From: Bacillus rhizoplanae
Lineage (GTDB): Bacteria; Bacillota; Bacilli; Bacillales; Bacillaceae_G
Length of the DNA: 64,000 nt
Reading direction: 5' to 3'
Assembly (NCBI RefSeq): GCF_917563915.1
Contig: NZ_CAKJTI010000011.1
Location: 1-64,000 of the forward strand
The stretch's first letter is position 1. Each line of letters begins with the position of its first letter. Position numbers and translations under genes: made by a program. The notes below the pieces were generated by a model. That model worked only from the letters and a program-made list of their open reading frames with translations, did no database searches and had not been told where the DNA came from. Positions 4,285-59,525 of the stretch are shown here, piece by piece.

Positions 4285-4380
4285 TTTATCCCGCATTAAC
4301 GGGCAGTAAAAGCCCAATTGGTTCAACTAACCATCAATGGGGAATAAAGACCCTCCCCACTGATGGAAGTTTCACTTTAT
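4285..4380 (+). mobile_element. bcr1 repeat, internally deleted copy (A)
   Basis: This 96-bp copy begins TTTATCCCGCATTAACGGGC and ends GGAAGTTTCACTTTAT, so both ends and the flanking TTTAT duplication are kept while about 55 bp of the middle are missing. The right TTTAT (4376-4380) contains, on the minus strand, the TAA stop of the VanW gene. bcr1 is a non-autonomous repeat of the B. cereus group. Confidence 0.85.
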
Positions 4381-5288
4381 CTTACAGCACGTACCTCTGC
4401 GATTAATTTCTGACCTTCTATGTACATCACAAGCTTAACTGGAGTATCATTTGGATTTTCAAATACTAAATCTAAATAAGGATACGCAATCGTTGCATCT
4501 CTACCTTTAGGTACATAGCCTACTTGTTTGGAATGTGTTGATCTCTCTACCATTGTTAACCCTGCTTGATCTGCAGCATTAAACAGTGTAGAAGAAGTTT
4601 GACATACACCACCGCCATATCCATCTACTAATTTACCATCTATAATCTCTTTTCCTAATTGGTACCCTTTATCAGGTGTTGTATCACCTATTAAAGCATT
4701 GAAGGAAAATCTATCTCCCTTTCCTAATACAACCCCATTGACAGTGCTTGCAGACAAACGAATATTTTCTATTCTACCACCAGTAGAACCTCCTAAATTC
4801 GTTTCATATCTTCCTAGAACTGCTCCATTGCCAGTTGCATCTTCTGGTTTTGCTACAGGCTTTTTCTCTACAATCGGCAGCTGATAAGAAGAATCCCACA
4901 ATCCTACATTCATCAATTGATCTATTAACTCTTTTTCCATTAATTCATAAGAAGGTTTCCCTTCTATCCATTTACCATCACTTGTCATACGAGAAGGAAC
5001 CATCTTTGTATCGATACTCTTTCCAAGTTCGCTAACAACCTTAGTAACTTCCTTTTTAAATTTCTTCTCATCTTCAAAATAACCTAAACTTGCTAAATCT
5101 AGTTTTTTTACTTCTTTTCCACTTCTTCCATCTACTAAACTTATACTTTTATTTACTTCTTCCTTCGCTTGTGCAACATTCTCACCTGCACCACTCACTA
5201 ATGTAACCTCACTAGCCTTCGGACTACATCCGCTAACTACGCCTATACATAGTGCCCCTAACATCAAACCTCGAACCTTATGTAACAA
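4377..5288 (-). CDS. VanW family lipoprotein
   Basis: A 303-aa exported lipoprotein. The signal peptide ends in lipobox VSGC (residues 18-21), so Cys21 would be lipidated and the protein held on the outer face of the membrane. The C-terminal half (about 150-300) is a VanW domain: NGVVLGKGDRFSFN, the conserved GYGGGVCQTSSTLFNAA block and the late strand pair DLVFENPNDTPVKL. VanW domains occur in cell-envelope proteins of Firmicutes; the biochemical role is not established. The start is TTG at 5288, preceded by AAAGGAGAG. The stop TAA lies inside the target-site duplication of bcr1 copy A. Confidence 0.88.
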   Translation of the reverse strand: MLHKVRGLMLGALCIGVVSGCSPKASEVTLVSGAGENVAQAKEEVNKSISLVDGRSGKEVKKLDLASLGYFEDEKKFKKEVTKVVSELGKSIDTKMVPSRMTSDGKWIEGKPSYELMEKELIDQLMNVGLWDSSYQLPIVEKKPVAKPEDATGNGAVLGRYETNLGGSTGGRIENIRLSASTVNGVVLGKGDRFSFNALIGDTTPDKGYQLGKEIIDGKLVDGYGGGVCQTSSTLFNAADQAGLTMVERSTHSKQVGYVPKGRDATIAYPYLDLVFENPNDTPVKLVMYIEGQKLIAEVRAVR

Positions 5289-5688: not shown

Positions 5689-5841
5689 TTTATCCCTCAT
5701 TAACGGGTGGTAAGACCCCACCTCAAGATTCAGAGAAAAACGAAGAAGATAGGTGGGAATAACTGTCCGTAAAAGCTCGATTAGTTCAACTAACCATCAG
5801 TGGGGGATGAAAAAACCCCACTGATGGAAATTTCACTTTAT
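5689..5841 (+). mobile_element. bcr1 repeat, full-length copy (B)
   Basis: A 153-bp copy flanked by TTTAT at 5689-5693 and 5837-5841. Internal hairpins are visible: CCATCAGTGGGG paired with CCCCACTGATGG, and the CACCTC...AGGTGG arm. The ribosome site of the next gene (CGGAGG, 5846-5851) starts five bases after the element ends. Confidence 0.9.
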
Positions 5842-13867: not shown

Positions 13868-14035
13868 TAGTATTCTCACTCCTTGTACTTCTTAATTTAT
13901 GATTGATACCGCAAAAAGAAACCGTCATTAGCGGAAAACCCGCTTTTATTTATTACTAATAATAAATACTCCAGCTGTATAATCTATTGAGGTTTACATG
14001 TATATTTCAGTCTTACATGATATAGAAAACCTGCC

Positions 14036-14150
14036 ATTACTGAAAGTTCTCTTTCCCCTTCAACAATGGAAATATCTTACCAATTAAGCACATACCAGTA
14101 GTTATCCTTCCATTTCCCTCTCGATCTTGAGGGAAGAAGTCTTATCGCCT
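14036..14150 (-). mobile_element. strongly decayed bcr1-like copy (K)
   Basis: Read on the minus orientation of the repeat, segments such as ACCAATTAAGCACATACCAG, AGTTATCC and ATCTTGAGGGAAGAAGTCTTA line up in order with the bcr1 consensus, but many bases differ and no clean TTTAT ends remain. This fills most of the gap between the operon and the small kinase-like gene. Confidence 0.4.
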
Positions 14151-14229
14151 ACAAATTCTGAAAAACAAGCGTTCAGTGGTTTTAACGTTAAAAAGTATTA
14201 CTTCCAAGACGCCTCGTTTTTTATCGATA

Positions 14230-19415: not shown

Positions 19416-19521
19416 ATAAAAAGTGAAACTTCCATTAATGGTGGGGGCTTCATCCCTCATCTTCTTCGCTTTCCTCTGACTCTTGAGATGGGGGTCTTAC
19501 TGCCCGCAAATAGCGAAATAA
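19416..19521 (-). mobile_element. bcr1 repeat, internally deleted copy (J)
   Basis: In reverse orientation: ATAAA at 19416, then AAGTGAAACTTCCATTAATG, and at the far side CTTGAGATGGGGGTCTTACT followed by GCCCG. About 50 bp of the middle are missing. It ends directly against the ribosome site of the Nudix gene. Confidence 0.8.
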
Positions 19522-28597: not shown

Positions 28598-28755
28598 TTT
28601 ATCCTGCATTAACGGACAGTAAAACTCCCCTCTCAAGATTTTGAGAGAACAAAAAAGATAGATGGGAGATAACTGCTGGCATGTGCCCGATTGGTGAAAG
28701 CTTTCCAGCAGTGGGGAATAAAGAAAAACCTCTACTGATAGAAGCTGCGCTTTAT
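28598..28755 (+). mobile_element. bcr1 repeat, diverged full-length copy (C)
   Basis: 158 bp with TTTAT at 28598-28602 and 28751-28755. Many internal changes (for example CCTGCATTAACGGACAG) show it is old. It fills most of the gap between yhdT and the aldehyde dehydrogenase gene; the remaining bases on its left, to 28399, are AT-rich without a gene. Confidence 0.8.
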
Positions 28756-28785
28756 CCGGCAACTCCTCTTTTATTTGGAATAAAT

Positions 28786-36003: not shown

Positions 36004-36180
36004 GCTTTATGTACCTCAATATGATATGATTACAAATACGATTTGATTATAGGAACATTACCCTCTAAGAAAAAATTCTTTTTCCTCTAAATGAATTATT
36101 CTCACCACTTTTTATTCCCATACTTCTAAGTATACGATGAGGTTCATTTATCCAAGCATTGTTTTTGGATATCCCGATTC

Positions 36181-36240
36181 ATACTGGCACGGTCATCGGA
36201 GCCGTAAGGACGAAAGAGAGGTAGGGCTTTCGTTGTTTTG
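36181..36240 (+). ncRNA. possible structured RNA or csp leader element
   Basis: GC-richer than its surroundings, with two consecutive hairpins: ACGG / CCGT around TCATCGGAG, then ACGAAAG / CTTTCGT around AGAGGTAGGG. It lies about 145 bases before the decayed csp gene on the same strand and could be its old leader. It matches no riboswitch consensus that I know. Confidence 0.3.
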
Positions 36241-36385
36241 AGGTTTCAAAAACGATAATGAACATTTACTGTTCTTATCTTCCATTTTAACGTAAAAATG
36301 ATAATAGATTTAAATATATGCTTATATTTGCTCGGTTCATATAAATAGGAAACACATCTTTAGGAATATTTTAAAAGTTTTTTAT

Positions 36386-36516: not shown

Positions 36517-36525
36517 GAAAACGAA

Positions 36526-36558
36526 AAGAACATGCAACAGTTTGCTGCATGTTCTTTA
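36526..36558 (-). terminator. intrinsic terminator of vWA-tubulin operon
   Basis: AAGAACATGCA / TGCATGTTCTT around an 8-nt loop, with T-rich sequence when read leftward, directly after the 46-aa gene. Confidence 0.82.
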
Positions 36559-36699
36559 TTATTCTTCTACAGTTTCTCTTTCATCTCCACTGATACATTC
36601 ATGAATTGATTGACTCTCTTTCTCCTCCATACAAATCATCGCATGATAAATTTCTGAATATAATCCAAATACTTGGTACACACTTCCAAGAAACGGCAT
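36559..36699 (-). CDS. 46-aa protein, third gene after tubulin-like gene
   Basis: ATG 36699 opens a 46-codon frame (MPFLGSVYQVFGLYSEIYHA, then a CMEEKESQ stretch and an acidic end). AGAGGG lies six bases upstream, the upstream tubulin-like gene ends 56 bases before, and the operon terminator follows the stop directly. The position argues for a real small gene. The front half is amphipathic or hydrophobic and the end acidic. No family recognised. Confidence 0.55.
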   Translation of the reverse strand: MPFLGSVYQVFGLYSEIYHAMICMEEKESQSIHECISGDERETVEE

Positions 36700-36755
36700 A
36701 AGAATCCCTCTTTTCCAAATAATAAATTCCAAAGTTAAGGATTCCCTATCTTTTC

Positions 36756-39700
36756 TTAAACATTCGCATTTGTATCTTCCTCTTCTATTTGAACATTAAG
36801 AAGGTGTAACCATTTCTTATACGGTGCACTGTTTGGATCTACAAATTCTTTTGCATATGAGCGATTCCATAGTTGCTTTACAAATAAAGTCGCTTCTTTT
36901 TTTGCCGCTGCTTCCGCTCCAGTCCCGTAATAAGCTTTAAAATATTGTTCAATTTCATCAACAAGTAATCGTAATAACTCATCAGATGTTTCTTCTAACG
37001 TCGGATCATATTTCGCTTCCTTATCGTACATCAAGATAACATCTAAGATATTATGAACATGTTCTTTTCGCAGCCATCTTATATCTTGCGCACCTAATAC
37101 AAATGAATGTGTATATAAATGTCCTCCGTGCTGCAATGCTTTTCCCTGTTCTTCTTCAAAACGAGAAATGATATTTTCATATATAAATGGGTTATGAAGC
37201 AATGCACGGTGCAATTTATACCCTTCATTTGTTACATTTTTCCCCATCGATTGAATAAGAGAACTTCGGCCCACTCCGTTATATTGGTGAACGAACTGAC
37301 CATCCACAGCAGCAAGACTAATCCAACGATATATATATGCATACAATAAAGCACGATTACACTTATCATAATCAAGCTTCGTTTGTGTTACATTTAAATC
37401 TGGCATAAAAGCAGGTAAGTGCCAATACTTATCAAGATGCGGTGTTAAATTCGATTTACGAACGTTTAATTTATTTACGCGGCGATAATAGGATTGAAAG
37501 TAATCTCCCTTCTCGTTCACATAACCGTTTGCAATATGCCCAGACGATAATTTCGGAAAATCTTGCAGCGACAATCCATAATGCGCACGGTAACATACAA
37601 TTTCATACGGTGAAAAAGCTTCATCAACTGTTTCTTTTTCCTGGAACATCTCTTGTAACGTCTCTTCATTTAACTCTTGATGAATAAGCGGATGAATACC
37701 CCAATATTGTAATTCACGATGATGCGCAACTTTCGGTATAAATGGACTTGCAAGATGCAGCAAATCTTCAATTTTCTCACTTACATACTCTGTCATATCA
37801 CGCTTTTGAATAGCCGCTTCTTTTCGCAGTGCTTCAATAATATTTAATTCTAATTTATCTCGGTAGCGATCTTGCAATTCCTGCTCACAATACGTTAAAA
37901 TATGTTTCCGATAAAAATCTTCTACTTTTTGTGATTGTCCTTCCTCTACCTGCGCTCCCCTGCAATATTCACGATATAAACTCATATAAATTTCAGCAGA
38001 TATCTCTTTTGGCAGCACACCATTGTTTACATGGTGATGAATATCGTTCCACATTTCTTCCTGCATTCGCTCATCTGCTAATACGTATACATTTGTTGGA
38101 TTTGTTTTTCCCTCAAATTCTTTACTACGTTTTTGAATGTCTAATAATAAATTTTCACGAGTTTCTTGTAAATTATCAAAGAAACGCTCCCAATATTGAA
38201 TCATTTTATCTACAGCCTGATATAAAGATTGATAAACAAGCTCTAATAACATTTCTTTTCGATATTCATTTAATTTGTGTATATATTGAGTTATAATATC
38301 TTGAAATTCTTTTCGAAATGTCCGCTGTTCATTGTGAAACATTTTTCCAAACCAATTTTGTTGCTGCGTCAGTTCAACACGTCTAACAGCTGTTACCGTT
38401 CCTTCAATATTGCTCACATTAAATTTTTTATCATAATTTTGGATAAGACTGCGTTTCTGTTCATTATTTTCATGCAGACGATTCATTTTTTCGGTTAACA
38501 ATTTACGAATTTCATATAACATGTAACGTGCAGCGACAGGATGAACAGGATCTGTTTTCTTTAAAAACCATGTATTCAACTGATATGACTGTCCCTCTGA
38601 ACCGCTTGGTGTAAATCGATCAGTTTCAACCATATCATATATCAATGTAGTTACATGCTCATGTACACGGCTTGGTATCGCATACGCATATAAACGTACA
38701 GCGTGGTCCACCCGTGCCACTTCACCTTTCATTTGTTCAGTGATTTTCAGCTTTGCAGCTGAAATTTTACACTCTCGCTGCAAGCGATTTAACTCTTCAT
38801 CTTTTTGTACCGTACGCTGCACATAATTTTCTACCGCTTCTAAAAATAATTTTGATTTTGATATACCAATTTTTCCGCCTTCTGCTCCTTCGCGCGTTTC
38901 ATAATACATTTGCTTATAAAACACATGCGCCTGTTCTGGACGAGTCGCCAAATGTTCTAAATCTTCTAAGAAACTTTTTCCTCGCTCGGGTTTTTCACGC
39001 TGCATACCGCGGCGAACGTCTTGCTCATACCGGCTTTTCTTATCTTGAAAAAGTCGATCTAAATGAAGCCACGATTCATCTAGCCCTTGCACTGCCCATT
39101 TTAAAGCGCAGTAACGAAGAACATTTTCGTATGGATAAATAAGTTTTGCAGCTCCTGCTCCGCAATAACGAGCTTTACCATTTGAATCAGCAAGTTGTTG
39201 AATTTGATTATCTTCTTGCGCAAAATGACTCGTTGACATTGGACTAAATAATTGTAAATAAATTGTATTTGTCATTTGTTCCATATAATCAGACAAACTA
39301 TGCAAATGGTGACCATGTAAATTTTCATAATCATATAAGAAGCAATAATTATATGGTAAATGATGCTGCATAATGGTGTGATTTGTGCGTCCGTCTTCAT
39401 CTACTTGATCCGGACGATATTCTAACTCAATTGTAACGCCCCCGCGACGTGATAATTCTCCTGTAGATCCTAAAGTAATTGCGTGTAATTCTTTTAATGA
39501 TGCATACCCGTTTGCCTGCACCGTTTCAAATTCTTTTCCGCTAATTGTGCGTGTTTTGACGAGAACATCAGGAAGTAAAAAAGCACCGCGAATTAAAATG
39601 TTGTGATGTTGCAACTTTTTCCGAAGCATTTCTCGTAAATATAGAGCGATTTGCAAAAACATACCGGAACCTGTGCCACCAGCTAATGACGTAACAATAA

Positions 39701-40118
39701 TAACGCGCACACCGTATTCTGTTGTATCACTTGTTACCGGAAAAATCTTCTCAATTTCTTGCCAAAAAGCTGTTAATTTATCTTCCTTCATCGCTGCGCG
39801 AAGTGCTAGGCGAGAAATAACCCGAAGTTGACCCGCACCTTCTGTTAATGGTTTATCTAGTACAGTCGGGTCAATCGGAAACCAATCTGGAATCGTTGGA
39901 TCTTCCGCCATATATTCACGCGGTGTTTTACTAGAGCTCGTTTGTGTCACAAATTTACGAATATGCTGAAAGTGACTTAACGTATTAATATCTGTATCAA
40001 ATACGTGCATCGCTACTTTTTTACGCCGTTCTTTCGGAAGCTTTCGGTAAATATCATGCGTAACCGTACTTCCAATTCCCCCGAGTCCAATTAAAATTGT
40101 TGGCACTTGAAAATCCAT
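36756..40118 (-). CDS. large tubulin/FtsZ-superfamily protein
   Basis: A 1120-aa protein. The N-terminal about 350 residues form a tubulin-like GTPase domain: ILIGLGGIGS at residues 8-17 opens the Rossmann-like part, and the nucleotide signature LAGGTGSGM (145-153) corresponds to the tubulin GGGTGS(G) loop. This is the Tubulin_2-like domain of some bacterial proteins. The remaining about 770 residues are helical and charged with several coiled-coil stretches. ATG 40118 follows AAGGTGG; GTG at 40127 lies in the ribosome site. It is downstream of a vWA gene, with bcr1 copy E between. A related FtsZ-like/vWA system has been proposed to remodel membranes; the function here is untested. Confidence 0.85.
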   Translation of the reverse strand: MDFQVPTILIGLGGIGSTVTHDIYRKLPKERRKKVAMHVFDTDINTLSHFQHIRKFVTQTSSSKTPREYMAEDPTIPDWFPIDPTVLDKPLTEGAGQLRVISRLALRAAMKEDKLTAFWQEIEKIFPVTSDTTEYGVRVIIVTSLAGGTGSGMFLQIALYLREMLRKKLQHHNILIRGAFLLPDVLVKTRTISGKEFETVQANGYASLKELHAITLGSTGELSRRGGVTIELEYRPDQVDEDGRTNHTIMQHHLPYNYCFLYDYENLHGHHLHSLSDYMEQMTNTIYLQLFSPMSTSHFAQEDNQIQQLADSNGKARYCGAGAAKLIYPYENVLRYCALKWAVQGLDESWLHLDRLFQDKKSRYEQDVRRGMQREKPERGKSFLEDLEHLATRPEQAHVFYKQMYYETREGAEGGKIGISKSKLFLEAVENYVQRTVQKDEELNRLQRECKISAAKLKITEQMKGEVARVDHAVRLYAYAIPSRVHEHVTTLIYDMVETDRFTPSGSEGQSYQLNTWFLKKTDPVHPVAARYMLYEIRKLLTEKMNRLHENNEQKRSLIQNYDKKFNVSNIEGTVTAVRRVELTQQQNWFGKMFHNEQRTFRKEFQDIITQYIHKLNEYRKEMLLELVYQSLYQAVDKMIQYWERFFDNLQETRENLLLDIQKRSKEFEGKTNPTNVYVLADERMQEEMWNDIHHHVNNGVLPKEISAEIYMSLYREYCRGAQVEEGQSQKVEDFYRKHILTYCEQELQDRYRDKLELNIIEALRKEAAIQKRDMTEYVSEKIEDLLHLASPFIPKVAHHRELQYWGIHPLIHQELNEETLQEMFQEKETVDEAFSPYEIVCYRAHYGLSLQDFPKLSSGHIANGYVNEKGDYFQSYYRRVNKLNVRKSNLTPHLDKYWHLPAFMPDLNVTQTKLDYDKCNRALLYAYIYRWISLAAVDGQFVHQYNGVGRSSLIQSMGKNVTNEGYKLHRALLHNPFIYENIISRFEEEQGKALQHGGHLYTHSFVLGAQDIRWLRKEHVHNILDVILMYDKEAKYDPTLEETSDELLRLLVDEIEQYFKAYYGTGAEAAAKKEATLFVKQLWNRSYAKEFVDPNSAPYKKWLHLLNVQIEEEDTNANV

Positions 40119-40134
40119 GTGAACCACCTTCCTA

Positions 40135-40295
40135 TTTATCCCGTTATCCCGATATTTGCGGGCAGTAACACCCCCACCTCAAGATTCAGAGAGAAGCGAA
40201 GAAAATAGGTGACGGATAACTGCCCATAAAAGCCCGATTAGTGAGAGCTTTCCATCATCGGGAGATAACCCCCACTGATGGAAGTTTCACTTTAT
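40135..40295 (+). mobile_element. bcr1 repeat, full-length copy (E) inside an operon
   Basis: 161 bp with TTTAT at 40135-40139 and 40291-40295, between the vWA gene and the tubulin-like gene. The right TTTAT contains the TAA stop of the vWA gene. The left end carries a variant CCCGATATTTGCGGGCAG. Confidence 0.9.
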
Positions 40296-42394
40296 TCACA
40301 TTCATATCTATATACTTCTTTTCCATAGCCGCGATCAATAACAACCATTTCGTTCGGATATAACGTTTTATACTCGCGTCCTGCTTCTTCATCTGTTAGG
40401 ACCATACCATCAATCACCATGCCTGGTACTTGAGAATCTTTCGTAACAAATATAGATTTTGAGCCTTTTTTTGCAATAAACGTAACAGATTGCACTGTTT
40501 TCCGCTCCGCTCGAAATGGAATACCAAAATAATGATTCCACCATTTCGTTCGCAGTGGCTCTGGTTCAGATTTATATAACCAATCTTCCGCAATAGATTG
40601 ATCCCATTCATAATACATAAGCGCTTTCCTATGAAAACGCGGGCGAACTATCCATCCAACAACAAGAATCGTAATAATGAATAAGATTATACTAAATGGT
40701 AAAACGAACTGAAAAATGGTCGCATAACGCTCTAAAAAAGGAACGTCAATAATAGACAACGAAATTTGTTTACTAGCTTTTTGCGATTGTGAATCTCGTA
40801 ATGTGATGGTAGCTTCTATGATGCCAGTATCTGTAAAATTAAACGTGTTGGAGTAATAAGGACGAGGATATACATATATTTGTTTTCTATTTTGCTTTAG
40901 TTCATAGTTGATAGATTTATGAAATGTAATAGTAGCCGTTTTCAACAATTCCCTTACTTCTGCTTCTGACATTGATTCTTCATTTAGTAGTGGTTGTATA
41001 ATAAATGGTGCGCTATGCTCTAAATTTGTTACTTTTTCTTTATAATTCGTTGTAACAACTTTTAATGATAGTTTTGGTTTTGGAACGGATTGAATGTGGA
41101 ATTCTTTCGTTTGGCGATAAAACCCTTTTATATTCATGTGCACATTTCCATGCACCGCGTCTCTCCCTATTTTTGTTTCATAGTAGAAGACTTTTCGTTT
41201 CCCATCCCATTGCATCGAATGCATTTGATTATTTATTTCTATTTGAGCAGTAAAATATGAAGCATCTACCGGTACATTTGTTGGTTTTGCTTCTATAATT
41301 GCTGTTTGATTTTCATAGATTTGTTCTGTTTCTTTTTTCGGGTCCTTTCCTTTTTCATATATGGAAACGGTATAATCTAATGCTGGTTCTACTAGTACTT
41401 TCATATTTTCCTTTGTCACTGCTTGATCAATTTCTACCATATATGTTCCTGGTTCCATTACAGCATTGTTTTTAGGCATAATATGAGTAATTCCACCATA
41501 TAATCCCATTCCCGCCGGTGCTTGAATCGAAAATCTCGATTGTAAATTGAGTGATCCTTGTATATTTTGGACACGATACGGTATGTTCTGAGAAGATTGA
41601 CCAACAAGCGTAATTCGTTTTAACGGAAATGGTGTTGTAATTTCAATCTTGTTTCCTACTATATTTGTTTTTACCGCTTCTTCTACTGATGAAAATGGAT
41701 CACGATTCGCTATTAAAGCAGCAGCTTGGTTGACGCTGTGGATAACACCATCTTCTCCACTTGTGGGGAACACGATTCCATTTATCTGTTGTTTCCAAAT
41801 AACTTTAAAGACGTTCATTTGTGCTTGTTCTTGCGCCCCTAAATTTTCTTCCATTGTAATTAATACTGCATGTAAAGAAATATTTTTTTCTTCCATTTCT
41901 TTTTTAAAAGTACTGAGCGTTTCCGAAATCCTTTTTTTCCCACTATCATCTTGTTTTTCTAGCTCATTAAACGCTCCATCTGTTAGAATAATAAGCCAAA
42001 ATTCACGATTGGCATTTTCCTGAGCTTGCCTCTTAATAGATTGGATAGCTGTTTCCACCGATTGAAAAGGTGTGTTAACATGTTCATTCCATTTTTGAAT
42101 CTTTTCAATTTCCTCTTGCCGTTTGTTATTTGCTAGAGAAACTGTTATTTCTTGCGATGGATGACTCATTGGTACATAGGAAAACGTATCTTTTTCATCT
42201 AACAATGCAATCAAACTTTGCAATGCATAATTTGCATACTTCCAGCGATCATTATTACGCATACTACCAGAATCATCATACACAAGTGAAACAACACGCT
42301 GCCTCGCTTCTTCTCCTTTCGCTAAACTAGAAAAAGGACAAATACATATGAGTAGTAAAAACAAAATAGATGTGGCTATGATTCGAATATGCAT
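40292..42394 (-). CDS. exported von Willebrand A domain membrane protein
   Basis: A 700-aa protein with a signal peptide (residues 1-25), a vWA domain whose MIDAS motif DDSGS is at 40-44 with ILTDGAF later, a long extracytoplasmic beta-rich region, one membrane helix at about 563-585 (PFSIILFIITILVVGWIV) and a 115-residue cytoplasmic tail. The metal site suggests a protein-binding role outside the membrane. It is the first gene of the operon with the tubulin-like protein, so its tail could link that protein to the membrane. Its TAA stop lies inside the bcr1 target duplication. AAAGGTGG is 12 bases before ATG 42394. Confidence 0.88.
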   Translation of the reverse strand: MHIRIIATSILFLLLICICPFSSLAKGEEARQRVVSLVYDDSGSMRNNDRWKYANYALQSLIALLDEKDTFSYVPMSHPSQEITVSLANNKRQEEIEKIQKWNEHVNTPFQSVETAIQSIKRQAQENANREFWLIILTDGAFNELEKQDDSGKKRISETLSTFKKEMEEKNISLHAVLITMEENLGAQEQAQMNVFKVIWKQQINGIVFPTSGEDGVIHSVNQAAALIANRDPFSSVEEAVKTNIVGNKIEITTPFPLKRITLVGQSSQNIPYRVQNIQGSLNLQSRFSIQAPAGMGLYGGITHIMPKNNAVMEPGTYMVEIDQAVTKENMKVLVEPALDYTVSIYEKGKDPKKETEQIYENQTAIIEAKPTNVPVDASYFTAQIEINNQMHSMQWDGKRKVFYYETKIGRDAVHGNVHMNIKGFYRQTKEFHIQSVPKPKLSLKVVTTNYKEKVTNLEHSAPFIIQPLLNEESMSEAEVRELLKTATITFHKSINYELKQNRKQIYVYPRPYYSNTFNFTDTGIIEATITLRDSQSQKASKQISLSIIDVPFLERYATIFQFVLPFSIILFIITILVVGWIVRPRFHRKALMYYEWDQSIAEDWLYKSEPEPLRTKWWNHYFGIPFRAERKTVQSVTFIAKKGSKSIFVTKDSQVPGMVIDGMVLTDEEAGREYKTLYPNEMVVIDRGYGKEVYRYECE

Positions 42395-47489: not shown

Positions 47490-48275
47490 TTTGTACCCTC
47501 CCTAATTTTATGTACGATACTACTTGTGAGAAACTTTTTTTGATAACTTTATGTTTCTATATAGTTATCAGAAAATTTCTATTAATTAATATTCTACTAA
47601 TTTTTTTGATTTTGTAAAGTGTTATTATTAAAAAAATTTAAAAAATTATTTTATTACAGTAATATTTATAATCATTCTGTAAAATAACTCAAGAAAAAAG
47701 ACATCCCTTTACTATGTGGATGCTTAAATCCTTTTATTTATTACTATTTATTACTATTTTTCCAAAAAAACATATAAAACAATCATTTACAATATATTGC
47801 ATTCTTATACATATCCTCTTTATGATTCTTTCATTTTATTCTCTTGTATTTCCAGCAAAACTTTCTCATGTTTTGTCTGACAATTTTATTTTTACTCTTC
47901 GTAACAATAGCAACACTCTTATTATTTCTTACACTATATAATTACGGACTTCTAACATAAAGTGAAACTTCCATCAGTGGAGGTTTTCTTCATCCCCCAC
48001 TGATGGTTAGTTGAACCAATCGGGCTTTTACGGGATAAAGCGATCGATACTAACCAAAAACGCTAATCCTTTTTACAAAATAACTTCCAGTGTGGAAAAT
48101 CCATCGCCATTAACTGTTACTGCATCCTTTCATTATTCTTTATTAAAATTTTGACTTTGTTAAAGAACATTATTGATTTTTCTTATTGAACAAACGGAGC
48201 AGGATAGTTAGAAGAAGGATTAGGGCATTAAGTATGGAATAAATTTCTTAAATAACAAATAAAGGAGCGTATATA
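47490..48275. other. intergenic region with bcr1 copy G
   Basis: Very AT-rich. It holds the oppA promoter region, a CATCC / GGATG hairpin near 47702-47726 and bcr1 copy G. A 75-codon hydrophobic frame at 47714-47941 has no ribosome site and is not called. The last 230 bases lead to the DinB-like gene. Confidence 0.5.
47957..48039 (-). mobile_element. bcr1 repeat, truncated reverse copy (G)
   Basis: 83 bp in reverse orientation, ATAAAGTGAAACTTCCATCA at the left and CGGGCTTTTACGGGATAAA at the right. The 5' half of the element is missing, but the flanking ATAAA repeats are kept. Confidence 0.85.
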
Positions 48276-51752: not shown

Positions 51753-52940
51753 TTATTTACTTACTTCTCCGTCTTGTGTCCCTGGATATTTCGCACCCTC
51801 ATACTTATAAATATAAACTTTAGCAAATTTGTTATCACCTTTATCATCAAAAGCTACTTTCGTAATAACGCCATCATATTCTTTTATAGCACGAACTGCA
51901 TCGCGTACTTGTTCACGTGTTGGATATTTACCATCATTTTTCTTAATGGCATCTTTAATTCCTTGTAAAATAACACCAGCTGAGTCATATCCATATGCAG
52001 AGTATGCCTCCACATCTTTTTTGAACTTCTCTTTATATTCTGTCACAAATGCTTTCCCTTTCTCTGTTTCTGTTGGTGCTGTCGCTACTGTTGTATAATA
52101 CGTATCTTTTAATCCATCTTTTGCAACTTCTGCCATTGTTGGAGAATCGATACCGTCACCGCCCATAATTGGTGCTGTAACCCCTTTTTCACGTGCTTGT
52201 TTTACTAAAACGGATCCTTCTGAATACATACCACCAAAATAAACAAGATCTGGCTTTTTCGCGACAACTTGGTTTAACACACCACTAAAATCTTTCTCAC
52301 CAACTGTAATCCCCTCATAACCGACAATTTTTGCTCCTAGCTTTTCTGCTTCTTTTTTAAATGCATCAGCTAACCCTGTACCGTAAGCTGTTTTATCTTG
52401 AATTACAAAAATATTTTTTGCCTTTACTGTTTCAAGCGCATATTTCGCTGCCGCCGGACCTTGGAAATCATCTCTTGCAACAAGGCGTGCAACAGTCTTT
52501 AATCCACGTTCTGTTAATTCAACTGCCGTACTCGATGGCGATACCATAACAAGACTTGCTTTCTCATATGTTTCAGAAGCGGCAATAGATACACCTGACA
52601 TTAAATGTCCTACAACGCCCAATACTTCTTTATCAGCTGCGACAGACTGAGCATTAGCAACCCCTTTTTTCGGGTCACCTTGATCATCTTGCGGAACAAA
52701 TTGCAATTCAAAACCTAGTTTTTTAAACTCTTCTTTTTGTTTATCTACTGCAAGCTGCGTTCCAAGCTTAATGGCTTCTCCAAAAGCAGCTGATCCACCA
52801 GAAAGAGGGGATTCAGAAGCAATTTTAATTACTTTACTTTCCTTAGTTTCAGTTTTAGTAGAAGCTGAATTCGCATTACATCCCGCCATCATTCCTGCTA
52901 ATAAAACACCTGATAACAAAAGCGATATCTTTTTCTTCAC
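51753..52940 (-). CDS. branched-chain amino-acid ABC transporter binding protein (second copy)
   Basis: A 395-aa periplasmic-binding-type lipoprotein of the LivJ/K family. The signal ends in lipobox MAGC (18-21). The mature part opens VIKIASESPLSGGSAAFGEA and has GVVGHLMSGVSIAAS. It is closely similar throughout to the 58.3-59.5 kb gene that heads the liv operon, so it is a recent paralog. The start is GTG 52940 after GGGGGAG. It is not linked to permease genes and is flanked by terminators. An AT inverted repeat lies just upstream, as for its paralog. Confidence 0.9.
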   Translation of the reverse strand: MKKKISLLLSGVLLAGMMAGCNANSASTKTETKESKVIKIASESPLSGGSAAFGEAIKLGTQLAVDKQKEEFKKLGFELQFVPQDDQGDPKKGVANAQSVAADKEVLGVVGHLMSGVSIAASETYEKASLVMVSPSSTAVELTERGLKTVARLVARDDFQGPAAAKYALETVKAKNIFVIQDKTAYGTGLADAFKKEAEKLGAKIVGYEGITVGEKDFSGVLNQVVAKKPDLVYFGGMYSEGSVLVKQAREKGVTAPIMGGDGIDSPTMAEVAKDGLKDTYYTTVATAPTETEKGKAFVTEYKEKFKKDVEAYSAYGYDSAGVILQGIKDAIKKNDGKYPTREQVRDAVRAIKEYDGVITKVAFDDKGDNKFAKVYIYKYEGAKYPGTQDGEVSK

Positions 52941-55030: not shown

Positions 55031-55175
55031 TTTGTCCCGCATTAACGGGCAGTAAGACCCCCACCTCAAGATTCAGAGAAAATCAAAGAAGATAGGCGTC
55101 CGTAAAAGCCCGATTGGTTCAACTAACCATCAGTGGGGGATGAAGAAAACCCCACTGATGGAAGTTTCACTTTAT
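55031..55175 (+). mobile_element. bcr1 repeat, full-length copy (H) inside the liv operon
   Basis: 145 bp; the left repeat is mutated to TTTGT (55031-55035), the right TTTAT is at 55171-55175. It is followed at once by CCCGCATTA, so the right end reads TTTATCCCGCATTA, a copy of the bcr1 left end. Confidence 0.9.
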
Positions 55176-55181
55176 CCCGCA

Positions 55182-58316: not shown

Positions 58317-59525
58317 TTACTTTTTCTCTACTTCTCCTTCTTGTCTTCCTGGATATTTTTGCTCTGCAAATTTATAAATATATACTTTTGCAAATTTATT
58401 ATCACCCTTGCTATCAAACCCTACGTTTGTTACCGCTCCTTCAAAATTATTTGTTTTCCGAACAGTATCGCGTACTTGTTCTCGAGTTGGCATTTTGTTG
58501 TTATTTGCTTTAATCGCATCTTCCACTCCTTGCAGGAGTACACCCGCAGCATCATACCCATAAGCCGAATATCCTTCTACCTCTTTATTAAATTTGCTCT
58601 TATAATCATCCGCAAATTCCTTTCCTTTTTCCGTTGTTTTCGGGTCAGCAGCGATAGAAGTGTAATACGTGTTCTCAATAGAGTTACCTGCAATTTCTAC
58701 CATCGTTGCTGAATCCATACCATCACCGCCCATAAACGGGATTGTAAGGCCTTTTTCACGTGCTTGCTTCACTAACAGTCCACCTTCTGCATATAGACCA
58801 CCAAAGTAAATTAAATCAGGGTTTTTCGCGAGTACTTTATTTAACACACCGTTAAAATCTTTTTCTCCGACCGTAATAGATTCATAACCTGCAATTGTTC
58901 CACCTAATTTTTCAACTTCTGTTTTAAATGCTTTAGCTAAACCTGTTCCATAAGCTGTTTTATCATCAATAATAAAAACGTTTTTTGCCTTCAGTGTTTT
59001 CAATGCAAACTCTGCCCCGGCAGGGCCTTGAAAATCATCTCTTGTACATATACGATTTACTACTTTCAAATTACGATCCGTTACTTCAATAGCAGTATTT
59101 GTAGGTGATACCATAACAACATTGTTTTTCTCATACACTTCAGAAGATGGAATTGCAACTCCTGAATTCATATGTCCAACGACACCAAGTATTTCTTTAT
59201 CCGCACCAATAATCTGTGCGTTCGCAACACCTTTTTTCGGATCAGCTTGATCATCATATGGCACAAATTTTAGTTCGTATCCTAATTTTTTAAACTCTTC
59301 TTTTTGTTCTTCTATTTTCAGTTGTGCACCAAGTTTAATTGCTTCCCCTTGCGTTGCAGAACCACCAGAGAGCGGTGATTGAGTCGCAATTTTTATGACC
59401 TTTCCACCCCCACCTCCCGTACTTGCTGTATCAGCATTACCATTTGTTTTATCACTGCATCCTGCTAATAAACCAAACACACACACTGCAGAAAGAACAA
59501 AAGCAAAATTTTTCTTTTTTATCAC
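58317..59525 (-). CDS. livJ: branched-chain amino-acid ABC transporter binding lipoprotein
   Basis: A 402-aa LivJ-type lipoprotein, first gene of the liv operon. The lipobox is LAGC (20-23), and the mature protein opens VIKIATQSPLSGGSATQGEA; GVVGHMNSGVAIPS and YSAYGYDAAGVLLQGVEDA follow. The start is GTG 59525 after a GGGGG. A perfect 43-base palindrome lies 16 bases upstream. It binds leucine/isoleucine/valine-like solutes outside the cell and hands them to LivHM. Confidence 0.93.
   Translation of the reverse strand: MIKKKNFAFVLSAVCVFGLLAGCSDKTNGNADTASTGGGGGKVIKIATQSPLSGGSATQGEAIKLGAQLKIEEQKEEFKKLGYELKFVPYDDQADPKKGVANAQIIGADKEILGVVGHMNSGVAIPSSEVYEKNNVVMVSPTNTAIEVTDRNLKVVNRICTRDDFQGPAGAEFALKTLKAKNVFIIDDKTAYGTGLAKAFKTEVEKLGGTIAGYESITVGEKDFNGVLNKVLAKNPDLIYFGGLYAEGGLLVKQAREKGLTIPFMGGDGMDSATMVEIAGNSIENTYYTSIAADPKTTEKGKEFADDYKSKFNKEVEGYSAYGYDAAGVLLQGVEDAIKANNNKMPTREQVRDTVRKTNNFEGAVTNVGFDSKGDNKFAKVYIYKFAEQKYPGRQEGEVEKK

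Follow-up and report, generated by a model that had tools for sequence, protein, structure and literature searches.

The window analysed here is 64 kb of DNA from Bacillus rhizoplanae (assembly GCF_917563915.1, contig NZ_CAKJTI010000011.1, positions 1–64,000). It contains two adjacent genes, one for a protein with a von Willebrand factor A (vWA) domain and one for a large tubulin-like protein, which we will call TUB. The pair is almost certainly a member of the FtsZl1/vWA family and very likely the reduced, two-gene form of a four-gene system, vWA-TUB-X-Y. The explanation that we favor overall, though tentatively, is a reduced two-gene membrane system in which a sensor vWA protein is coupled to a tubulin-like GTPase. 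X and Y, as partner genes in the fuller loci, are the new result of this analysis.

The vWA-TUB pair

In the window, the vWA gene is followed by the TUB gene, a 46-aa frame and a terminator-like hairpin, all on the minus strand. The features of the pair are:

40292..42394, minus strand: vWA protein, 700 aa (Pfam VWA_2, E = 1.8e-6; structure model; orthologues in relatives)
42263..42277, minus strand: motif DDSGS of the metal ion-dependent adhesion site (MIDAS), vWA residues 40–44 (invariant in 11 sequences including the window)
40649..40705, minus strand: vWA membrane helix, residues 564–582 (hydropathy scan; helix 558–599 in the model)
40295..40645, minus strand: predicted cytosolic tail of vWA, residues 584–700 (conservation; putative sidedness)
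36756..40118, minus strand: TUB, FtsZl1 (Tubulin_2) family, 1120 aa (PF13809, E = 1e-75; 66–81% identity to L001–L004)
39084..40097, minus strand: Tubulin_2 domain of TUB, residues 7–344 numbered without the first Met (Pfam)
39663..39680, minus strand: GGTGSG GTP-binding loop of TUB (invariant in 14 sequences including the window)

The original prediction, made from the letters of the window, had described an 1120-aa tubulin-like protein with a GGTGSG loop, and this is what we find. Counted from the ATG at 40118, TUB has that length (our alignments begin at residue 2, so their numbering is one low), and its Tubulin_2 match is very strong. It also matches the Tubulin/FtsZ GTPase family of Pfam, with E = 2.5e-5, which is under the curated cut-off; beyond the N-terminal domain there is no Pfam match. 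Conservation of GGTGSG in homologues had been set beforehand as a check, and the core is invariant in all 14 TUB sequences. Within the seven-residue signature GGGTG(S/T)G, the window's TUB has A in place of the first G and keeps the core.

The predicted tubulin fold fared less clearly. When a profile of the 14 TUB proteins is compared with one of seven short tubulin-family proteins from related genomes, the two match around the GAG and GGTGSG loops (E = 3.4e-5, probability 72). This is a positive, if modest, result; control profiles of X, vWA and Y gave E above 0.3 against the same tubulin-family profile, and six of the seven single comparisons with TUB align over the GTP-loop region. The structure model of TUB adds little. 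It shows long helices, at very low confidence, and does not establish a coiled coil.

The vWA protein was likewise predicted to be exported, with an intact DxSxS and one membrane helix, and our analysis agrees. Hydropathy gives a hydrophobic, signal-like N-terminus and one further membrane helix. D40-x-S42-x-S44, T108 and D139 are invariant in the 11 aligned sequences; we take T108 and D139 to be the residues that complete the MIDAS. In the structure model (mean pLDDT 70), residues 33–230 form an alpha/beta domain and 242–549 a beta-rich stalk, followed by a long helix at 558–599 and a tail of weakly predicted beta; the stalk and tail are described from predicted secondary structure only. Compared with three Ectobacillus orthologues, the tail is 61–67% identical, which is on par with the vWA domain (62–63%); the stalk is 43–49% identical. 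Because the protein has a signal-like start and basic residues after the membrane helix, the vWA domain should be outside the cell and the last 117 residues inside. The original prediction made this tail an anchor for TUB. The predicted topology and the conserved tail would fit TUB binding, and to that extent the proposal stands as a possibility drawn from sequence.

Sequence comparisons put the homology of both large proteins far beyond chance. The nearest TUB proteins are from Ectobacillus panaciterrae (81% identical), E. funiculus (80%), E. antri (79%) and Bacillus sp. 165 (66%). In the relatives L001–L004, the downstream neighbour rarD is common to all four, as is a ~140-aa membrane protein; DUF1294 is present in three of the four (the latter two judged by eye from translations). 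Because these downstream neighbours are common to the window and L001–L004, the evidence points to vertical inheritance of the locus. dN is 0.13–0.26 for TUB and 0.35–0.52 for vWA, and for comparison 0.24–0.37 for rarD, whereas synonymous sites are saturated or nearly so. Since dN is low despite this saturation, both TUB and vWA are under purifying selection, with vWA evolving faster.

The original prediction also expected the two large genes to be linked, and they are. Among 19 genomes of the GTDB family, the vWA gene is in all five with full-length TUB and in none of the 14 without (a sixth Tubulin_2 match is a 355-aa protein). Among 299 genomes of the order, Tubulin_2 matches occur in 19, over the cut-off in 13, with full-length TUB in 12; two of the 12 (G174 and G183) are of the DO-GTPase type discussed below. 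The vWA family is found in exactly ten of the 299, and these are the ones with window-type TUB, so window-type TUB and vWA were never found apart among these genomes. Because the profiles contain members from the ten, it is the absence from the remaining 289 genomes that gives this co-occurrence its weight.

Membership in the FtsZl1/vWA family, which the original prediction had suggested, held up, but its claim of a new system did not: the family has been described. The FtsZl1 branch of tubulins was predicted in 2010 by Makarova and Koonin (PMC2875224), who give its proteins an FtsZ-like domain, a coiled coil and a helical C-terminal domain. Hence the long C-terminal region of TUB, which had been thought undescribed, was described already. 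They also report that FtsZl1 genes share operons with vWA genes, mostly with an intact MIDAS. In the review printed with that paper, a reviewer names the Bacillus vWA partner BT9727_3336, with a signal peptide, and asks how an exported vWA protein could meet a cytoplasmic FtsZl1. Other tubulin-like proteins belong, according to Kaur et al. 2020 (PMC7159879), to DO-GTPase/GAP1 conflict systems that also include vWA genes, and work on the FtsZ/tubulin family published in 2023 treats Tubulin_2 proteins as divergent. No experiment on the FtsZl1 branch appears in the titles and abstract starts of the open-access literature, among the matches listed.

Partner genes X and Y and their probable loss

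Two orders of the phylum, that of Ectobacillus and one other, have fuller loci that are predicted to be four-gene operons, vWA-TUB-X-Y. Across both orders, X has ~650–800 aa and usually two membrane helices; Y has ~1250–1800 aa, with membrane helices, a zinc ribbon and in many cases HExxH near its C-terminus. Membrane or exported proteins are predicted for three of the four genes.

In Ectobacillus's order, X occurs in 8 of the 299 genomes, all of them among the ten with vWA and window-type TUB. It follows TUB in these eight and has ~720 aa (it is split in G261). Among the seven intact X proteins scanned, six have two membrane helices and the other has one over the threshold. Y adjoins X in eight of eight genomes and has ~1280 aa (two pieces in G261), with at least five hydrophobic helices within the first ~220 residues of the seven intact proteins. 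All eight have a CxxC pair (zinc ribbon) and a C-terminal HExxH, whose residues H1194, E1195 and H1198 (numbering of L146, L146:925-4764) are invariant in eight aligned rows. Matches of Y to metallopeptidase families in Pfam are weak, and none is over its curated cut-off. The locus of G261 (L045, L140) is decaying: a stop truncates vWA, and X and Y are each broken in two, while the TUB frame is still open.

In the second order (that of G376), 25 of 295 genomes have a TUB match. We examined regions from 20 genomes plus G376, leaving out G756, G774, G916 and G974. Together vWA, TUB and Y are present in 18 loci (17 plus L098 of G376). Two others, L106 and L123, are too short to judge, and L138, a diverged copy, has neither vWA nor Y by profile. 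X has a profile match in 12 of the 18 loci, with a profile made from those same 12 sequences, and the other six have an unmatched frame of like size (678–788 aa) in the same place. Profile comparison indicates that the X proteins of the two orders are homologous (probability 97.9, E = 3.6e-13). HExxH is present in 10 of the 17 second-order Y proteins examined.

The gene order differs on an Azospirillum plasmid, which has TUB, a 710-aa protein, a vWA match (E = 2e-6) and a relative of Y (E = 2.8e-9) that lacks HExxH. We also noticed that an Azospirillum plasmid TUB (L104, 7665–14629) has a C-terminal GYF_2 domain, with OmpA-family genes nearby. Two other candidates for X were rejected. The ~680-aa protein after TUB in Thermaceae is like X in size and place only, with no sequence support (nor are the Thermaceae vWA proteins detected by the window-type vWA profile). 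In DO-GTPase loci, the second large protein has no profile match to X. Neither X nor Y is described in the main-text parts of Makarova and Koonin 2010, and the families in its supplement may list them.

The lineage of the window lacks both partners. By profile search, X is in none of the five Ectobacillus-type genomes, and the same profile detects X in the eight genomes of the order. Y is also in none of the five (three of three positive controls were detected, and two DO-GTPase genomes were silent), and neither is in the 64-kb window. A tree built from the N-terminal parts of 31 TUB proteins groups the two-gene loci (the window, L001–L004 and L043) in one clade, with support 100/100, beside the longer loci. 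Because the two-gene loci form this one clade, a single loss of X and Y would be the simplest account.

A proposed mechanism and its rivals

How might a vWA protein and a tubulin work together? Our proposal is that the outer vWA domain would use its metal site to bind a ligand of the wall, of the surface or of foreign origin, and the cytosolic tail would recruit the tubulin-like GTPase and control its GTP-dependent assembly at the membrane. In the full systems, assembly would relay the signal to X and Y; in the lineage of the window, the sensor and the GTPase would act alone or with unlinked partners. This mechanism is a guess, and it may well be wrong. A bolder version is a long shot: vWA-TUB-X-Y would be an outside-in signalling machine, in which a ligand bound by the outer vWA domain triggers a cytosolic tubulin polymer on the receptor tails, and this polymer, acting via X, activates Y and its HExxH peptidase, and the window would hold a minimal receptor-coupled tubulin.

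Several points weigh against a sensor coupled to a polymerising tubulin and against its derivation from a four-gene system. The contact between the vWA tail and TUB is conjectural, and the sidedness of vWA is itself predicted. Sequence searches of solved structures gave no match to vWA (E up to 0.01) and, for TUB and X, only chance-level matches with E of 0.16 or worse. The TUB model, built on five close rows, has a mean pLDDT of 39, which is very poor, and the single comparison of TUB with one of the seven tubulin-family proteins (L028) aligns elsewhere than the GTP loop. Makarova and Koonin (PMC2875224) could not find the T6-H7 elements in FtsZl1; because of this, FtsZl1-type TUB may not polymerise. 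HExxH is missing from seven of the 17 second-order Y proteins: five of these are cut at the end of the stretch, and two (L131 and L136) are complete frames. Finally, the vWA and X profiles were built partly from the genomes counted, so presence is partly by construction, and the second-order X profile is made of the sequences that it matches.

Defence against phage is a main rival, though we consider it unlikely. As in the conflict systems of Kaur et al. 2020, infection would be sensed and a multimeric tubulin-like assembly would contain it or kill the cell. Some relatives of TUB do lie beside conflict genes: DO-GTPase in L041 and GAP1-N2/GAP1-M in L092 (Pfam), and G183 (L042) has a DO-GTPase2 match, with the same layout by eye in L093–L096. 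But TUB of the DO-GTPase type forms a clade separate from the window type (98/97), although long branches meet at that split. Of 15 genomes searched, three have DO-GTPase2 matches (G174, G183 and G052), and none of the five Ectobacillus-type genomes does. G052, which is of the window type, has two such matches (G052:C6:79632-84813), on a contig other than that of its four-gene locus. In Thermaceae plasmids (L090, L101 and L102), a trio of vWA, TUB and the ~680-aa protein lies before BrxL in three of three cases, with a transposase gene between them in L090; in L101, the one Thermaceae locus scanned with PADLOC, HmaC and PDC-S01 proteins are upstream. This supports a defence role of the Thermaceae branch, and the arrangement of trio and BrxL is not in the titles and abstract starts of the literature, among the matches listed. 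Two caspase-family genes lie beside one Azospirillum TUB copy (L104), and a clostripain-family gene is near L097. In the window itself, neither vWA nor TUB matches a PADLOC model (E up to 0.01), and one of ten flanking proteins does, over a generic-methyltransferase-like stretch. The neighbours that the window has in common with L001–L004 point to vertical inheritance, unlike a mobile defence island.

About as unlikely, in our judgment, is the membrane-remodelling cytoskeleton of Makarova and Koonin 2010, in which a polymer of TUB shapes the membrane or vesicles and vWA is a mere anchor. That paper makes a genome-context argument for it, and the high proportion of membrane or exported products among the four agrees with it. 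Yet the intact MIDAS of vWA points to ligand binding over plain anchoring, filament formation by TUB is putative, and the reviewer's remark in the printed review (PMC2875224) sets the signal peptide on the vWA proteins that were checked against a likely cytoplasmic FtsZ-like protein. We also considered that the pair might be a functionless remnant, decaying after the loss of X and Y, which seems very improbable. Such decay would fit the missing partners, the broken locus of the same family in G261, the truncated small gene downstream and the repeat inserted between vWA and TUB. It seems inconsistent with vWA and TUB frames that are open in the window and in five relatives, with GTP-loop and MIDAS residues that are invariant, and with a TUB that is still ~80% identical to three Ectobacillus orthologues at saturated synonymous sites.

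We return to a reduced two-gene membrane system, with a sensor vWA protein coupled to a tubulin-like GTPase, as our tentative preference. The two-gene form occurs in nature and has close relatives in culture, and it shows which components can exist on their own; set against the four-gene form, it points to X and Y as two partners. If the vWA tail does control tubulin assembly, this would be a receptor-operated bacterial cytoskeleton.

Surroundings of the pair and known systems

The other features at the locus are:

40144..40295, minus strand: dispersed-repeat copy in the vWA/TUB spacer (repeat comparison within the window)
36559..36699, minus strand: 46-aa frame, truncated relic of a ~100-aa small protein (alignment and shuffles)
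36525..36557, minus strand: terminator-like hairpin (15 pairs and a T-rich tail)

A 46-aa frame and a terminator on the same strand are present, as had been predicted. The terminator scan found four terminator-like sites vs 3.8 expected from shuffles; the hairpin at 36557–36525 convinces through its strength and place, not by count. The frame taken alone would not be beyond chance. Its first 34–40 residues align with ~100-aa proteins of L003, L043 and L004, with the rest gone, and for each of the three none of 2000 shuffles was as good. The ~100-aa gene is at the same place in these three relatives (L003 and L043 are nearly identical) and is absent from the L001 and L002 genomes. Seven of the 19 family genomes have relatives of the protein: three with TUB, where the genes are adjacent, and four without, where the match starts at residue 18 or 24 with 38–39% identity. 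The third component that the original prediction saw in this frame is thus unlikely, given the truncation, its absence from two of five relatives and the presence of distant relatives in four of the 14 genomes that lack the pair. The ~100-aa gene is in our view a neighbour prone to absence or decay. Against this, it lies directly behind TUB in each of the three relatives with both genes, and a loose functional link to TUB is possible.

The vWA-TUB spacer has 173 nt in the window vs 13–32 nt in the five relatives. Most of it is occupied by a copy of a ~155-nt dispersed repeat, which extends to the vWA stop codon. The window holds five near-complete copies and three partial places:

40144–40295, 5689–5841, 55031–55176, 28598–28756 and 14019–14164: near-complete copies of the ~155-nt repeat
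47957–48034, 4297–4381 and 19420–19521: partial places of the ~155-nt repeat

The repeat was not found in the other loci compared with the window. It is reminiscent of the bcr elements of the Bacillus cereus group. Because the terminator scan gave no terminator-like site within the spacer, cotranscription of vWA and TUB is possible.

Directly downstream of the locus is a match to the small RNA BsrC in Rfam (36159–36246, minus strand). Two long direct repeats (52122–52805 and 58689–59372, 73–78% alike) sit inside the frames 51753–52940 and 58317–59525, which are probable paralogues. A phage origin of the pair was rejected: two scans of IMG/VR gave no relative, and the one match in a phage collection is a 9.8-kb unverified faecal record, bacterial in appearance. 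This contig (L091), labelled 'Bacteriophage sp.' in GenBank, has vWA and TUB of this family and is apparently a mislabelled bacterial contig. A plasmid origin was rejected as well, since any single plasmid matches at most 3% of the 14.5 kb queried.

How does the pair compare with known systems? Like FtsZl1, the window's TUB has an N-terminal FtsZ/tubulin-like domain with the GGTGSG core and a long C-terminal region, and the adjacent vWA gene encodes a signal-like start and an intact MIDAS. Unlike the FtsZl1 loci, there are two genes only, and the flanking proteins scanned include no kinase, GTPase or OmpA. The GAP1-N2 DO-GTPase systems also have a tubulin-like protein with a long C-terminal region beside a vWA gene, but by Pfam there is no DO-GTPase or GAP1 in the pair, the small frame or five flanking proteins, and the window's TUB is in a separate clade. 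The window has the same clade of vWA and TUB as the vWA-TUB-X-Y loci and the same gene order, but neither it nor its Ectobacillus-type relatives have X and Y. TUB resembles FtsZ and the short tubulin-family proteins in profile around the GAG and GGTGSG loops; unlike them, it is about three times longer and is coupled to a vWA gene.

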